A stretch of DNA of 64,000 bases, taken from assembly GCA_003605035.1 (NCBI GenBank), contig QZKJ01000039.1, positions 1 through 64,000 on the forward strand. The letters run 5' to 3'. Each line of letters begins with the position of its first letter. Positions within the stretch are counted from its first letter, which is position 1. Of the stretch, positions 1-10,877 are shown in pieces. Below the pieces are notes generated by a model that had not been told where the DNA came from, ran no database searches, and worked only from the letters and a program-made list of their open reading frames with translations. Source of the stretch: Desulfurivibrio sp. GTDB taxonomy: Bacteria; Desulfobacterota; Desulfobulbia; Desulfobulbales; SURF-16. Made by a program: the position numbers and the translations under genes.

Positions 1-197
1 AAAAATATTTATCTTTAATTCAAGAACTTATGCTGAAAGTCGGCCGGGTTCGCCTCCGGTTGTCTCATCTGCAAAAGCGTTCGCGAAAATCGGTGATTAA
101 GGATTGAAGTCTGGCTGACGTTGACCGATAATATACGTGATAACCAGAATTATTTTCAGATTTCCTTTCACCTGAAAAGGCATTGTCATCTGTAGCC

Positions 198-1139
198 ATG
201 GCTGGACTGAACGCGATCCTTACCCAGATTTATACGCCGGTTGGCACGGTGGCGGGGACTCCTCCTGCCGGCGCTTCCCAGCCTCTGCCCCGGCAGAGCC
301 CGAACCCGGCGGAAGAAGAAAAAGACCGCTTTCAAGCCGGCCAGCCCTGGCTGAACAGGGCGGCCGGGGGAAAAGAAACGCCTGCCGGCACGGATTGCCG
401 CTGCGGCAGCTGCGCCGCGTGTGGCGCCAGGGTCTATGCCACCAGTCAGGGAAAGGTGCAGGCTTCTTCGGTCAGCCCCGCAGGCAGGCAGGAAGAGGGC
501 GGTGAGGCAGCGGCCGGTGCGGCAGGCGATGAACAGGAGCAGGCGACGGAAAATACGCAAGCTGCCGGCAGTACAGGTGGTTCTCAGGTCAAAGGCATGG
601 ACGGCCAGCCGCTCGATCCAGCCGAAGTGGCCCGGCTGGGGGAACTGAAAAAAGCGGATGCCGCGGTCCGGGCCCATGAACAGGCGCATCTTGCCGCCGC
701 AGGAGGGCTGGCCAAGGGCGGGGCCTCCTTTGCCTATCAGAAAGGCCCGGACGGCCGGAACTACGCGGTGGCGGGCGAGGTGCAGATCGATACCTCCAAG
801 GGAACAACCCCGGCGGAAACCGTGGCCAAGATGATGCGGGTCAGGGCCGCGGCCCTGGCCCCGGCCAACCCCTCGCCCCAGGACAGGAAGGTTGCCCAGG
901 CGGCTGCCCTGACCATGTCCGAAGCCAGACTGGAGCTCAATACCGAAAAGACCAGGCCGGCGGCAGAGCAGCAGGAAACCCGGGAAGAAGCGGCGGAGGT
1001 TGACAATGGGGCAGGCGAGGGGGAAAAGAACACTGCCGGGACAACGGCTGACAGCGGCAAACCCGCTGGGGCAGCCCGGGCCGCGTCCCGCTATCTGTCC
1101 GCTGCCAGGGGGCAGGGTTCCTGGCATCTCGCCGTTTAG
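198..1139 (+). CDS. SprA-related putative metalloprotease
   Basis: About 313 aa. The first ~130 residues are low-complexity, rich in Ala, Gly, Glu and Gln. The conserved part (roughly 135-255) starts with ELKKADAAVRAHEQAH and continues with an AGEVQIDTS segment, as in the SprA-related family of putative metalloproteases. H160-E-Q-A-H164 fits a zincin HExxH motif; catalysis is inferred from the motif, not known for this protein. Its substrate is unknown. The start is uncertain: ATG at 198 is taken here, but an in-frame TTG at 183 is possible and neither has a well-spaced ribosome binding site. The C-terminus is again low-complexity. No obvious operon partner. Confidence 0.75.
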   Translation: MAGLNAILTQIYTPVGTVAGTPPAGASQPLPRQSPNPAEEEKDRFQAGQPWLNRAAGGKETPAGTDCRCGSCAACGARVYATSQGKVQASSVSPAGRQEEGGEAAAGAAGDEQEQATENTQAAGSTGGSQVKGMDGQPLDPAEVARLGELKKADAAVRAHEQAHLAAAGGLAKGGASFAYQKGPDGRNYAVAGEVQIDTSKGTTPAETVAKMMRVRAAALAPANPSPQDRKVAQAAALTMSEARLELNTEKTRPAAEQQETREEAAEVDNGAGEGEKNTAGTTADSGKPAGAARAASRYLSAARGQGSWHLAV

Positions 1140-1595: not shown

Positions 1596-1750
1596 CTTCC
1601 CTCCCTGGAAAACTTGGTCTTACCTCTCTCATCGGCATCATGCCGGGATAGATTAACGGTTAGTTGACTATCTTTTGGCGGTGTGGTAGTAGGAGTGTTT
1701 GTTCATTTTTTAATCTCTTTTTTCCCCGAGCGGGGCAGAGGAACAGTCAG

Positions 1751-3067
1751 ATGCGTACGGACATAGTGCATATCGGTGCAGGCGAGCTGACCTACGAGAT
1801 TCGAAATATTGTCAGTGTCGGCGAGAAATTACAGGAACTGGGCATTAAAACATACTGGGAAAATATCGGCGATCCGGTGGCCAAGGGCGAGAAGATCCCC
1901 ACCTGGATGAAGGAGATCGTGGCGGAACTGGTCATGGAAGACGCCACCTACGGCTATTCGCCGACCCGGGGCATGCTGGAAACCAGACAGTTTATCGCCG
2001 AGCGGCGCAACAAGCGGGGCGGCGCCCAGATCAGCCCCAATGATATTCTTTTCTTCAATGGTCTGGGAGACGCGATCACCAAGGTTTTCGGCTTTCTGCG
2101 GCCTACCGCCCGGGTGGTGGTGCCCACCCCGAGTTACACCACCCACTCATCCGCGGAGGCGGCCCATGCCGGCGACCGGCCGGTCACCTATATCCTTGAT
2201 CCGGAAAACAACTGGTACCCTGATCTTGACGATCTGGAAAAAAGGATCAAATATAACCCGGCGGTGGCCGGCATTCTCATTATCAACCCGGACAACCCCA
2301 CCGGCGCGGTGTACCCTGAGGCCATCCTGCGCGGCATGATTGAACTGGCCCGCCGCTATGATCTGTTTATCATCTGTGACGAGGTGTACCATAATATCGT
2401 TTATAACGGCAAAAGGACCGTGCCGATTTCCGATATCGTCGGCGAGGTGCCGGCCATTGCCATGCGCGGCATTTCCAAGGAGATGCCCTGGCCCGGTTCG
2501 CGCTGCGGCTGGATTGAGGTGTATAACGGTCATCGGGACCCGATGTTTGAGAAATACGTGCAGTCGATTCTCAATTCAAAGATGGTGGAGGTCTGCTCGA
2601 CCACCCTGCCCCAGCGGGCCTATCCCCGCATTGTCAGCCATCCGGAGTACGGCAACTACCTGGCTGAACGGGTGGAACGGTATGAGAAGTATTCCAACAT
2701 CGCCTATGAGGCCCTGAAGGATATTGACGGCGTCATTGTCAACCGCACCAACGGCGCCTTTTATATGAGCGTGGCCTTCCAGGAAGGCGCTCTGACCCAC
2801 AAGCAGACCCTGGAGATTGAGAACAGTCAGGTGCGCGCGGAAATTGAAAGGCTGGTCAGCCCGGCCAATGTTTCCCCGGACAAGCGGTTTGTCTATTACC
2901 TTCTCGGCGCAACGGGCATCTGCGTGGTGCCCCTCTCCTCATTTGCCACGCCGATGCAGGGATTCAGGGTCACCCTGCTGGAAAGAGACGAGGACACCCT
3001 GCGCATGATTTTTGCCACCCTGGCGGAAAATATCAAAAAATATCTCGCCTCGGAAGCAGGTTGTTAG
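1751..3067 (+). CDS. Class I/II pyridoxal-phosphate aminotransferase
   Basis: 438 aa. Fold-type I aminotransferase that should transfer an amino group between an amino acid and a 2-oxo acid in the cytosol. The N-terminal YGYSPTRG substrate segment, the NPDNPTG motif near residue 179 and the PLP-binding lysine K243 in SKEMPWPGSRCGW are all present, so it looks active. It is close to the aspartate/alanine aminotransferase group, but the substrate cannot be told from sequence. ATG at 1751 is preferred, with GAGG about 10 nt upstream; an in-frame TTG at 1664 would add 29 residues unlike the family. It ends 5 bp before the convergent carbonic-anhydrase-like gene. Confidence 0.88.
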   Translation: MRTDIVHIGAGELTYEIRNIVSVGEKLQELGIKTYWENIGDPVAKGEKIPTWMKEIVAELVMEDATYGYSPTRGMLETRQFIAERRNKRGGAQISPNDILFFNGLGDAITKVFGFLRPTARVVVPTPSYTTHSSAEAAHAGDRPVTYILDPENNWYPDLDDLEKRIKYNPAVAGILIINPDNPTGAVYPEAILRGMIELARRYDLFIICDEVYHNIVYNGKRTVPISDIVGEVPAIAMRGISKEMPWPGSRCGWIEVYNGHRDPMFEKYVQSILNSKMVEVCSTTLPQRAYPRIVSHPEYGNYLAERVERYEKYSNIAYEALKDIDGVIVNRTNGAFYMSVAFQEGALTHKQTLEIENSQVRAEIERLVSPANVSPDKRFVYYLLGATGICVVPLSSFATPMQGFRVTLLERDEDTLRMIFATLAENIKKYLASEAGC

Positions 3068-3072
3068 GGTTT

Positions 3073-3849
3073 TTAAGGCTCCGAAGCTGCCGGCCTGCCG
3101 ACGTTGGCCAGCAGCTTCGGGTCAACTGTCCGTAGCAGCTGCATCTTTCTGATTGTTTCCCCGTCCGTCTCGCCGTTGATGTTGATGATGATCAGCTGAT
3201 TGGCGCCCCTGCCATAGTAATTGGCGATGTCCAGCACGCTGCCCACCACCACCAGCCGGCTCCTGTTGATTCTGTCTCGGTAGCGTTCCATGGCCTGCCG
3301 GACCTGATAATCGACATTCTTTTCAATCAGCCTGAGCTCTTTTTTTTTCTCTTCCTTTTTTGCATCGTTGCCCGGATAGCCAAGCGGCAGATTGAGATGA
3401 TCCAGGTCCCGGCGAATGGTCTGGTCCAGGTCCCCATAGCCGGCGGTGAAAAGGCGGATGGCTTCGCTGTCGGTATTGCCGGTGATGAGCAGGACGGGAC
3501 TGTGCAGATAGAGCACGCCGTAATCAACGGGACCGAGGGAGGTGTCGAGCTGATTGGCCAGGTTGCGCACGGTGTAAATCTTCCCGGCGGCCTGGGCGAG
3601 GATGAATTCCGGCTGTACCCTGGCATCGGCATCGGCCAGCCAGGTGATGTAGGGTGCGGCGGAGCTGCCGGCAAGAATCGTTGCCGCAGGTTTTATCCGG
3701 CTGCCGGTGGCAAGAATTTCCCTGAGGATAGCAAACGGCGGGGTTCCGGCCCGGTGTTTGAGCACCGGCCGCATGTCGGCGCGGGCCTCTGGATTGAAGA
3801 AGAGGGCGCTGCAAAGAACAAGGAAAGAGAGAATTTTTTTGGGCCCCAT
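3073..3849 (-). CDS. Exported degenerate beta-carbonic anhydrase-like protein
   Basis: 258 aa with a signal peptide (hydrophobic residues 5-18, ending near ARA-D25). The middle aligns with beta-carbonic anhydrase: WLADADARV (70-78) matches the family's CxDSRV block, VRNLANQ (94-100) matches the conserved RN-x-AN segment, and ITGNTDSEAI (122-131) matches the GHxxCG block. All three zinc ligands are replaced: Cys to Asp73, His to Asn125, Cys to Ser128. The catalytic pair D75/R77 remains. The C-terminal part (NVDYQVRQAM, VVGSVLDI) also follows the family. It is therefore probably not a zinc carbonic anhydrase; it may bind another ligand or metal in the periplasm. Real function unknown. Confidence 0.7.
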   Translation of the reverse strand: MGPKKILSFLVLCSALFFNPEARADMRPVLKHRAGTPPFAILREILATGSRIKPAATILAGSSAAPYITWLADADARVQPEFILAQAAGKIYTVRNLANQLDTSLGPVDYGVLYLHSPVLLITGNTDSEAIRLFTAGYGDLDQTIRRDLDHLNLPLGYPGNDAKKEEKKKELRLIEKNVDYQVRQAMERYRDRINRSRLVVVGSVLDIANYYGRGANQLIIININGETDGETIRKMQLLRTVDPKLLANVGRPAASEP

Positions 3850-4290
3850 GCTGAAGATCCTGCGGCGATGGTTAATAAGCCGTTGAATAAAATAATATCG
3901 CCGTCCTTCTTGTAAGAGACGGCATAAGGAGCCGTAACGAAAGACTCAAAATGAAGAGGTTATTTCGTAGCGGCGCTAAAGATGAACAGAAAACATTCTG
4001 ACCATCAGACTAGCAGATAATTTCCCGGGAAATCAAGGAGTAGTGCCTGCTGGCGGTAAATAATCAGGAAAGTCAACTATATTCCCAGTTTACTTGACAA
4101 CGAAAAAGAGCATACTTATTGTTCCTCAAAACGAAGGCTCCCCTGTCCGCCAGCCATCGGCAGACCGGGTGGAGCGCGAAATCGTTTGCCTGACATGAAT
4201 TTCTGTTCGCGTTGTTTATTGTAAATTTGGCCGGTCCCTTGGATTTCATCAGGGATGCGGCATGCTTTCGGGAGAGGAAAGGAGGAACTG
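3850..4290. other. Intergenic region upstream of grpE
   Basis: 441 bp without a gene. It holds repeat copy 2 (3920-3976) and a perfect -35-like TTGACA at 4094-4099. The sequence 16-17 nt downstream (around 4116-4122) is a poor -10, so the grpE promoter is not settled. No CIRCE inverted repeat (TTAGCACTC/GAGTGCTAA) is visible. Confidence 0.5.
3920..3976 (+). repeat. Imperfect palindromic repeat, copy 2
   Basis: Begins CGGCATAAGGAGCCGTAACG and ends near GGTTATTTCGTAGCGGC. It matches the reverse complement of 1139-1197 at both ends, with a diverged middle. The two copies bracket the aminotransferase and carbonic-anhydrase-like genes in inverted orientation. Confidence 0.55.
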
Positions 4291-4860
4291 GTGGCGGAAA
4301 AAGAGGAAATCGTCGACAGGGCCCTTGATCCGGATGCGCAGGCGGCTGCGCAGGTCGAGGTTGCTGTGGAAGAGGGAGCTGGGGAAAAATCAGAATCTGC
4401 TGAAATTGATGAGCTTGCAAAGGCCCGAGCGGAAACAGCCGAGGTGACGGATAAATTGTTAAGACTGGCCGCGGAGTTTGAAAATTATAAAAAGAGGATG
4501 GAACGTGAGCGGGCCATCTCCTTGAAATATGCCGAAGAGCAGGTTTTCAAGGAGCTGCTGCCCAGCATTGATAATCTGGAGCGGGCCATTGAGCAGGGCC
4601 GGAAAACGGACAAGGCGGGTGATCTGCTGGCCGGCGTGGAGCTGACCTACAAGGGATTGCTGGCTGCCCTGGAAAAATTTGAGCTGGTTCCCCTGCAGTG
4701 CATCGGCGCCCCGTTTGATCCGAATATCCACGAGGCCCTGGCCATGGAAGCAAGTGGCGAGGTTGATGCCAACTGCGTTCTGCGGGAATTCGAGAAGGGA
4801 TATATGTATAAAGACAGGTTAATCCGTCCGGCAAAGGTTGTCGTGGCGAAAAAGAACTGA
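4291..4860 (+). CDS. grpE: GrpE nucleotide exchange factor
   Basis: 189 aa from GTG at 4291, chosen because AAAGGAGG stands 5 nt upstream; the ATG at 4255 has no such site. GrpE releases ADP from DnaK and resets the Hsp70 cycle in the cytosol. An acidic N-terminus is followed by a long helix (AEFENYKKRMERE) that dimerises, then the beta-wing domain ending in GYMYKDRLIRPAKVVVAKK, a GrpE signature. dnaK follows after 47 bp and is presumably co-transcribed. Neither hrcA nor dnaJ is adjacent. Confidence 0.95.
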   Translation: MAEKEEIVDRALDPDAQAAAQVEVAVEEGAGEKSESAEIDELAKARAETAEVTDKLLRLAAEFENYKKRMERERAISLKYAEEQVFKELLPSIDNLERAIEQGRKTDKAGDLLAGVELTYKGLLAALEKFELVPLQCIGAPFDPNIHEALAMEASGEVDANCVLREFEKGYMYKDRLIRPAKVVVAKKN

Positions 4861-4907: not shown

Positions 4908-6845
<1,938 letters not shown>

Positions 6846-9561: not shown

Positions 9562-9690
9562 TGAGAAGTGAGAAGTGAGAAGTGAGGAGTGTAGGGGCGG
9601 GTTTTATGCCCGCCCTCTAAGGCAGGCGGCAGAAGGCAAAAATGAGAGCAGGGGCGGTTCTCGAACCGCCCCAATGAGGCGAAAGGGGGC
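9562..9690. repeat. Heptamer repeats with GC palindromes, copy 1
   Basis: Tandem 7-mers of the GTGAGAA/GTGAGGA type are followed by GGGCGGGTTTTATGCCCGCC and, at 9651-9672, a GGGGCGGTTC..GAACCGCCCC palindrome. The same components recur at 25085-25321. No coding sequence. Confidence 0.7.
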
Positions 9691-9695
9691 AGGGG

Positions 9696-10877
9696 ATGGA
9701 AAAGTGGCGCATCAGGCTGGTCAATAAAATCGACCGGGCCGGACTGGTCCTGCTGGGCGAGGGGTATCAGGTCTCGGCTGACGAAAAGGACCCCCAGGGC
9801 ATCATTGTCAGAAGCAGCAAGATAGATACGGACAAATTCCCCTCCCTGCTGGCCGTGGCCAGGGCCGGGGCAGGTGTCAATAATATAACGGTTGAGCGGG
9901 CCACCCGGGCCGGCATCTGCGTGTTCAACACCCCGGGGGCAAACGCCAATGCGGTGGCGGAACTGGTTTTTGTCATGGCCGGCATCGGGGCCCGCAATAT
10001 TCATCACGGTATTGCTTTCTGCCGGGGGCTTGCCTCTCTGACCGATGAGGTGCTGGGCAAGGAGGTGGAGGGCAAGAAATCCGCTTTCCGCGGTTTTGAG
10101 CTGGCCGGCAAAACCCTGGGCGTGCTGGGACTCGGGCAGATCGGCGTCAGGGTGGCCAACGGCGGGGCGCGACGGGAGATGCGCACCATCGGTTTTGATC
10201 CCAATCCCACCCTGGGAAATATCCATATGCTCTCCGCCAGGGTCATTCTCGCCCGGTCGCTGGCCGAGGTGGTGGAGCATGCCCATATCCTCTCCCTGCA
10301 CATGCCCTATAACGACAAGACCAGGGGCTTTGTCAACCGGGACCTGCTGGCCCGCATGCCGGACGGCGCCATGCTGATCAACTATGCCCGGGGCGGCGTG
10401 GTGGTTGTTGAGGACGTGAGGGCCGCACTCGATGCCGGCAGACTCGGCTGCTACATCACCGATTTTCCCTCCACCGCCCTCATCGACCATCCCAGGGTGA
10501 TCACCACTCCCCATCTCGGGGCCAGCACCGAGGAATCCGAAGAACACTGCGCCACCATGGCGGTGCGGGAGCTGATGGGCTATCTTGAGCATGGTTCGGT
10601 CAGTCACAGTGTGAATTTTCCCAATGTGGAATCCATTCCCGGCGACACGGTGCATACCCGGCTGATCATGATCAACCGGGATATCCCCGGCATGATCGGC
10701 TTCGCCTCACAGACCATCGGTGCCCACGGCATCAACATCGCAAGTTACCTCAACGAGAGCAACGGCACGATCGGCTATAACATCATTGATCTGGAAGACG
10801 CCATCTCCGACGAGGTGCTCGCCGTCATCACGGCCCATCCGGACGTGATCCGCACCCGCAGGATCTGTTACCGGTGA
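9696..10877 (+). CDS. serA: D-3-phosphoglycerate dehydrogenase-like protein
   Basis: 393 aa. NAD-dependent 2-hydroxyacid dehydrogenase with a C-terminal ACT domain, as in the short form of SerA, which oxidises 3-phosphoglycerate in the first step of serine synthesis. The sequence shows the substrate-binding ARAGAGVNNI, the Rossmann motif GVLGLGQIGVRVAN, the catalytic Arg in NYARGGVV and the catalytic His in TPHLGASTEES. The last ~75 residues (INRDIPGMIGFASQTIG) are the ACT domain, probably serine-sensing. GGGGGCAGGGG precedes the ATG. Other 2-hydroxyacid dehydrogenases share these motifs, so the substrate is inferred. Confidence 0.88.
   Translation: MEKWRIRLVNKIDRAGLVLLGEGYQVSADEKDPQGIIVRSSKIDTDKFPSLLAVARAGAGVNNITVERATRAGICVFNTPGANANAVAELVFVMAGIGARNIHHGIAFCRGLASLTDEVLGKEVEGKKSAFRGFELAGKTLGVLGLGQIGVRVANGGARREMRTIGFDPNPTLGNIHMLSARVILARSLAEVVEHAHILSLHMPYNDKTRGFVNRDLLARMPDGAMLINYARGGVVVVEDVRAALDAGRLGCYITDFPSTALIDHPRVITTPHLGASTEESEEHCATMAVRELMGYLEHGSVSHSVNFPNVESIPGDTVHTRLIMINRDIPGMIGFASQTIGAHGINIASYLNESNGTIGYNIIDLEDAISDEVLAVITAHPDVIRTRRICYR

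Follow-up and report, generated by a model that had tools for sequence, protein, structure and literature searches.

What does a carbonic anhydrase fold do once every ligand of its zinc ion has gone? The question is raised by an open reading frame in the 64,000-nucleotide stretch of Desulfurivibrio sp. DNA analysed here (the window; contig QZKJ01000039.1), which a first-pass annotation had described as an exported beta-carbonic anhydrase fold with all three zinc ligands replaced. The frame was recovered at the same place, on the same strand and with the same length as in that annotation (Table 1).

Table 1 Coordinates of the ligand-less gene, its parts and its neighbours in the window
Feature	Position	Strand	Basis and remarks
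Zinc-less beta-carbonic-anhydrase-like ORF	3073..3849	-	258 aa, ATG start; PF00484 49.9 bits; fold model
Predicted signal peptide, residues 1-24 (MGPKK..ARA/D)	3778..3849	-	Sequence and hydropathy of relatives
N-terminal motif K31-x-R33-x-G35-x-P37-P38	3736..3759	-	Clade-specific; K31, G35, P37, P38 64/64; R33 59/64
Block 1, TWLADADARV	3616..3645	-	Asp73 in place of first Cys ligand; W70 invariant in the clade; D75/R77 dyad retained
Block 2, VRNLANQL (R95, Q100)	3547..3570	-	Profile alignment and clade conservation
Block 3, VLLITGNTDSEAIR	3454..3495	-	Asn125 at His ligand, Ser128 at second Cys ligand
Basic residues R189, R193, R198	3256..3285	-	Clade-specific; R193, R198 63/63 readable; R189 60/63
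C-terminal G251-R252	3094..3099	-	G 63/63, R 61/63 readable
Candidate promoter of ligand-less gene, CCTTGATTT-N-TATCTGCTAGTCT	4006..4038	-	Inferred
grpE-dnaK promoter, TTGACA-N11-CATACTTATTGT	4094..4122	+	Promoter scan; shared divergent region
PLP-dependent aminotransferase	1664..3067	+	NF005334 748 bits, residues 30-463; convergent neighbour
grpE	4255..4860	+	PF01025 162.8 bits; head-to-head with ligand-less gene
dnaK	4908..6845	+	PF00012 920.7 bits

The Pfam family Pro_CA (PF00484) covers residues 69-209 of the window protein with an E-value of 5.5e-13 and a score well clear of the curated cut-off of 25.7 bits; a whole-genome scan recovered the same stretch at 51.4 bits. It is the sole Pfam match of this single-domain protein, for which NCBIfam holds no matching family. 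Every PDB match found with phmmer is a carbonic anhydrase (top match 1ddz, E 3e-10). An AlphaFold2 model built from 15 sequences is of moderate quality (mean pLDDT 73.4, pTM 0.73), with pLDDT below 50 at residues 52-63 and at residues 21-36, where most of the N-terminal motif falls. Its top Foldseek match is the Mycobacterium tuberculosis enzyme Rv3588c (E 3e-9). In VIA-align, which covers Foldseek matches only, the model superposes on 4o1j with Z 15.8 and an rmsd of 3.9 Å over 162 residues, and all rows shown are beta-carbonic anhydrases except the last, a COS hydrolase of the same fold. The structure prediction that the first-pass annotation had suggested as a check thus bears out the fold, together with the Pro_CA and PDB matches. 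Sequence and predicted fold establish the window protein as a descendant of beta-carbonic anhydrases.

When a clade profile is aligned to the Haemophilus beta-carbonic anhydrase, W70-L-A-D73-A-D75-A-R77-V falls on W39-I-G-C-S-D-S-R-V and, residue by residue, T-G-N125-T-D-S128 on C-G-H-T-N-C. Asp73, Asn125 and Ser128 therefore stand at the Cys, His and Cys ligands, and D75 and R77 at the Asp-Arg dyad, in agreement with the replacements and the retained dyad read at first pass. Cys13, within the signal peptide, is the sole Cys of the window protein; the mature protein has none, and its only His residues are at 32, 116 and 151.

We followed these positions through 64 ligand-less proteins from 63 Desulfobulbales genomes, taking one best protein per locus (one genome, G245, gives two copies; the protein of G052 is truncated at a contig edge). 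Cys73, His125 and Cys128 each occur in 0/64 of them. Position 73 is Asp in 62 proteins, with one Glu (Asp/Glu 63/64) and one Pro. Asn occupies position 125 in 45/64, a polar residue (N/S/D/Q/T) in 58/64, and V, P, I or A in the remaining six; position 128 is Ser in 45/64 and Asn in 17/64 (S/N/D 63/64). The expectation that Asp, Asn and Ser would be conserved is therefore borne out for Asp73, the only near-fixed residue among the former ligand positions, and fails for Asn125 and Ser128. The dyad is kept as D75 in 62/64 and R77 in 56/64. An alternative metal site made of other Cys or His residues was rejected: the mature window protein is Cys-free, and no Cys/His column of the clade exceeds 37/64. 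Two short ligand-less forms (L057, 647-1324, minus strand, and L058, 4953-5621, minus strand; genomes G035 and G022) have lost the Asp-Arg dyad and also lack the stretch that links block 3 to the long helix.

The oxygen-bearing residues at the former ligand positions could still form a site of another kind, in which Asp73, Asn/Ser/Asp125, Ser/Asn128 and Asp/Asn127 would hold a hard cation of the calcium or magnesium type, or an oxyanion. The counts for Asp/Glu at 73, polar residues at 125 and S/N/D at 128 speak for such a site; however, residues 125, 127 and 128 vary, six proteins carry V, P, I or A at 125, and we consider it unlikely.

In beta-carbonic anhydrases the nucleophile is the zinc-bound hydroxide, so CO2 hydration by this route is not expected of the ligand-less protein. 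This counts against a metal-free enzyme that would use the remodelled cleft to hydrate CO2 or to carry out another hydrolysis, in the manner of the iota class with its different fold, and so do the absence of an evident invariant new nucleophile at the former ligand positions and the loss of the dyad in the two short forms. The dyad is nevertheless retained in most of the clade, where a dead site would not need it, and metal-free carbonic anhydrase activity exists in the iota class (PMC8132391). On balance, such an enzyme appears quite improbable. The protein itself does not belong to the iota class, a cone-shaped alpha+beta barrel (COG4337), as its model has the beta-carbonic anhydrase fold.

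A scan of genome contigs returned at least 16 loci. Among the matches listed, six are close ligand-less relatives from metagenome-assembled genomes, one of them from Desulfobulbaceae, a family that NCBI places in Desulfobulbales; the ten others come from Gallionellaceae or Nitrosomonadales (seven), Legionella (two) and Halorhabdus (one). The family, zinc-type paralogues included, is found in 49/58 near-relative genomes at E <= 1e-3. Across the order, 67/257 genomes match at E <= 1e-15, and 63 of these 67 carry the ligand-less form, the other four (G009, G023, G053 and G233) giving zinc-type scores only. In a partial sample of 395 genomes drawn from the larger phylum, 17 match at E <= 1e-30, seven of them in Desulfobulbales; the ten outside the order have Cys/His/Cys forms only, so the ligand-less form is known here solely from Desulfobulbales. 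No plasmid-borne relatives were found. These genome counts are not counts of independent events.

For comparison with zinc-type relatives, 145 matches were reduced by identity of their last 200 residues, and frames shorter than 180 aa were excluded, leaving 82 unique rows, 56 ligand-less and 26 zinc-type; the set of 64 proteins adds seven genomes absent from these rows. The nearest relatives are zinc-type beta-carbonic anhydrases of Gallionellaceae and of the same phylum (L011-L017, L098-L102 and L061), which share a C-terminal NINGE-like stretch, mostly have signal-peptide-like starts, and retain Cys/His/Cys without exception in the 26 unique rows. A quick IQ-TREE run, with the ligand columns and N-terminus masked out, groups the 56 ligand-less rows together beside these relatives (SH-aLRT 100); the run has SH-aLRT support only, a single model without mixture, and long-branch warnings. 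Loss of the zinc triad is therefore best read as having happened once, in the ancestor of the clade. Over the mature part, dN/dS is 0.09-0.43 in nine pairs, which shows purifying selection. A functionless, decaying remnant of a carbonic anhydrase is hard to reconcile with dN/dS far under 1, with invariants kept across the order and with reading frames that stay open in 63 genomes, one of them truncated at a contig edge. Although 194/257 order genomes, incomplete ones included, have no ligand-less match and some former ligand positions change readily, we regard decay as highly improbable. On this evidence, the clade of predicted exported beta-carbonic anhydrase pseudoenzymes is real, of single origin and spread across the order.

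Two minor observations concern gene copies and distant relatives. One genome carries the ligand-less gene twice; the contig of the additional copy (L136, G245:C11:1-8286) ends on its grpE side. The Legionella genes L018 (151-867) and L019 (4803-5519) encode beta-carbonic anhydrases with signal-peptide-like starts and intact Cys/His/Cys, in which Pro stands in for the dyad Arg (TCSDSPV) and Lys for the Gly that follows the second Cys ligand.

Defining a clade-specific position as one fixed in 90% or more of the 56 ligand-less rows and present in less than 20% of the 26 zinc-type rows, we found twelve: K31, R33, G35, P37, W70, L71, D73, T123, R189, R193, R198 and R252. K31, R33, G35 and P37 are rare at those positions in the zinc-type relatives; P38 is not among them. 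Seven invariants (K31, G35, P37, P38, W70, R193 and R198) mark the ligand-less clade, and W70 (64/64), T123 (62/64) and R95 (59/64) are likewise conserved. In the AlphaFold2 model, R189, R193 and R198 lie close to where the long helix (164-189) ends and the fourth strand (200-207) begins.

A crude hydropathy test, used in place of SignalP, agrees with the signal peptide noted at first pass: the window protein has a predicted signal peptide, and 55/56 ligand-less relatives have a hydrophobic stretch before the mature motif, with a small-x-small site in 54/56. None of the 56 has a lipobox, so the protein should, as far as its sequence tells, be a soluble periplasmic or secreted one. The remark that such a signal is rare among beta-class enzymes did not hold for this lineage. 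Besides the ligand-less gene, the genome has three Pro_CA genes, two of which (C38 and C108) have signal-peptide-like starts, as do the zinc-type forms of Gallionella; PMC5746736 reports signal peptides on some beta-carbonic anhydrases, so export is nothing special here. In another genome of the same genus (G004), two exported zinc-type beta-carbonic anhydrase genes of different types lie about 4 kb apart (L064, 4770-5579, plus strand, and 9634-10410, minus strand).

Beta-carbonic anhydrases function as dimers. The ligand-less protein might accordingly be a regulatory or structural subunit that pairs with an exported zinc-bearing beta-carbonic anhydrase of the same cell and tunes or stabilises it. 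Its fold would suit this role, the C38 and C108 proteins of the same genome are possible partners, and the zinc-less domain of CsoSCA does the equivalent in cis (PMC12646314). The C38-type exported enzyme, however, occurs in just 28/63 gene-bearing genomes at E <= 1e-15, a search below whose threshold C108-type enzymes score and so go uncounted, and it was not found in genomes such as G005, G024, G046 and G054, whose listed completeness is 98-100%. We therefore rejected obligatory pairing with the C38-type enzyme, and hold the subunit role in general to be rather unlikely.

Among known systems, the beta-class Pro_CA enzymes (Haemophilus HICA, Rv3588c) share with the ligand-less protein the fold, the order of the blocks and the Asp-Arg dyad; unlike them, it has no zinc ligand, is exported and carries new N- and C-terminal motifs. 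The non-catalytic bicarbonate site of the Haemophilus enzyme consists of Trp39, Gly41, Val47, Arg64 and Tyr181 (PMC3230598). The W39 and R64 equivalents are present as W70 (64/64) and R95 (59/64). The Gly is replaced, by A72 in 52/64 with no Gly in any, V78 is found in 30/64 (otherwise mostly I/L, a conservative exchange for Val47), and the Y181 equivalent is Leu, Ile or Phe (L206 in the window protein, Tyr in 1/63 readable), its placement resting on the G-x-V-Y-D motif and not on a printed alignment. With Gly and Tyr lost and only two of the five residues near-constant, we do not claim this bicarbonate site.

Acatalytic carbonic anhydrases are familiar from the alpha class of animals, where CA VIII, whose fold is unrelated to that of the beta class, has lost one of three His. 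The ligand-less protein, probably likewise acatalytic within its class, has lost all three ligands; PMC13253706 describes CA VIII as an acatalytic alpha-class carbonic anhydrase-related protein. The closest parallel in print is the C-terminal domain of CsoSCA, also a beta-carbonic anhydrase domain without a zinc site that is retained for a non-catalytic role: RuBP binds near the defunct site (PMC11086599), and the domain is required for hexamer formation (PMC12646314). In CsoSCA, a carboxysome protein, the zinc-less domain is fused to an active one, whereas the ligand-less protein is free-standing and secreted; it has a single domain of 258 aa, and its neighbours are grpE-dnaK and an aminotransferase, not a carboxysome locus. 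In the open-access literature searched, this fused domain is the only acatalytic beta-class case found, and searches there on cable bacteria, Desulfobulbaceae, grpE and pseudo-beta-carbonic anhydrases turned up nothing on the ligand-less protein.

As the zinc site is wholly lost yet the gene is kept by selection, a different, non-enzymatic job is most likely. We favour an exported, probably periplasmic pseudoenzyme that would bind or scaffold in the envelope without catalysis, and give this reading a probability of roughly 0.55. The first-pass idea of a periplasmic binding or regulatory protein derived from carbonic anhydrase is thereby supported in part, as to ancestry, loss of the triad, export and retention under constraint; its binding or regulatory role would be a proposal. 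The protein would have given up CO2 hydration. Its former zinc cleft, as the alignment suggests, may be a small polar pocket formed by Asp73 and polar residues at 125 and 128, with Trp70 near Arg95, and the new basic residues K31, R33, R193, R198 and R252 may bind a partner or an anion. Envelope binding or scaffolding is what the retained fold and dyad, the nearly constant Asp73, the residues Trp70 and Arg95 and the newly acquired basic residues point to, and a binding function of the clade is plausible. As Asn125 and Ser128 reach only 45/64 and the dyad is lost in G022 and G035, the pocket itself may be merely degenerate and the function located elsewhere in the protein. A more specific and decidedly speculative version would have the former metal site rebuilt from oxygen donors as a periplasmic sensor of a hard cation or an oxyanion, with the basic face signalling to or anchoring a partner; the oxyanion might be bicarbonate or a sulfur oxyanion, the hosts being sulfur-metabolising bacteria.

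A free-standing, secreted, order-wide clade of this kind would be a natural case of a metalloenzyme turned binding protein, and its 64 sequences indicate the residues on which the new role depends. Such genes are likely to be labelled "carbonic anhydrase" by automatic annotation, which would mislead metabolic reconstructions of Desulfobulbales.

The genomic position is steady. The ligand-less gene is divergent from grpE-dnaK in 59/62 testable loci (exceptions G231, G037 and G029), two of the 64 loci ending at a contig edge on the grpE side. The aminotransferase, whose listed start is probably too early, is kept as a neighbour in 32/58 loci, and the dnaK-trpS link in 34/45. In 9/16 order genomes without the gene the site appears empty, the aminotransferase lying directly upstream of grpE, and a divergent homologue beside grpE was found in 0/16 flanks of these genomes (best score 3.8 bits). 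The grpE-dnaK promoter pattern is conserved, with up to three mismatches, in all 48 shared intergenic stretches; its conservation extends past the usual -35/-10 hexamers, and within its own genome the exact pattern occurs at grpE only. It is found with no mismatch in 5/16 genomes without the ligand-less gene; the promoter is thus equally good in several such genomes and lends no support to co-regulation. On the opposite strand, the sigma-70 scan did not pick the candidate promoter of the ligand-less gene; CTGCTAG occurs in 9/48 intergenic stretches, with the longer CCTTGATTT element alongside in eight of those nine. The 48 stretches contain no match to the CIRCE consensus, and CTTGAAA-type strings are merely scattered. 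Shared heat-shock control as an explanation of the grpE linkage was rejected on the lack of CIRCE and on the presence of the grpE promoter in several gene-lacking genomes too. We read the linkage as a stable position; a functional link is possible. A SprA-related protein (183-1139, plus strand; PF12118) recurs in the same gene neighbourhood in 22 loci.
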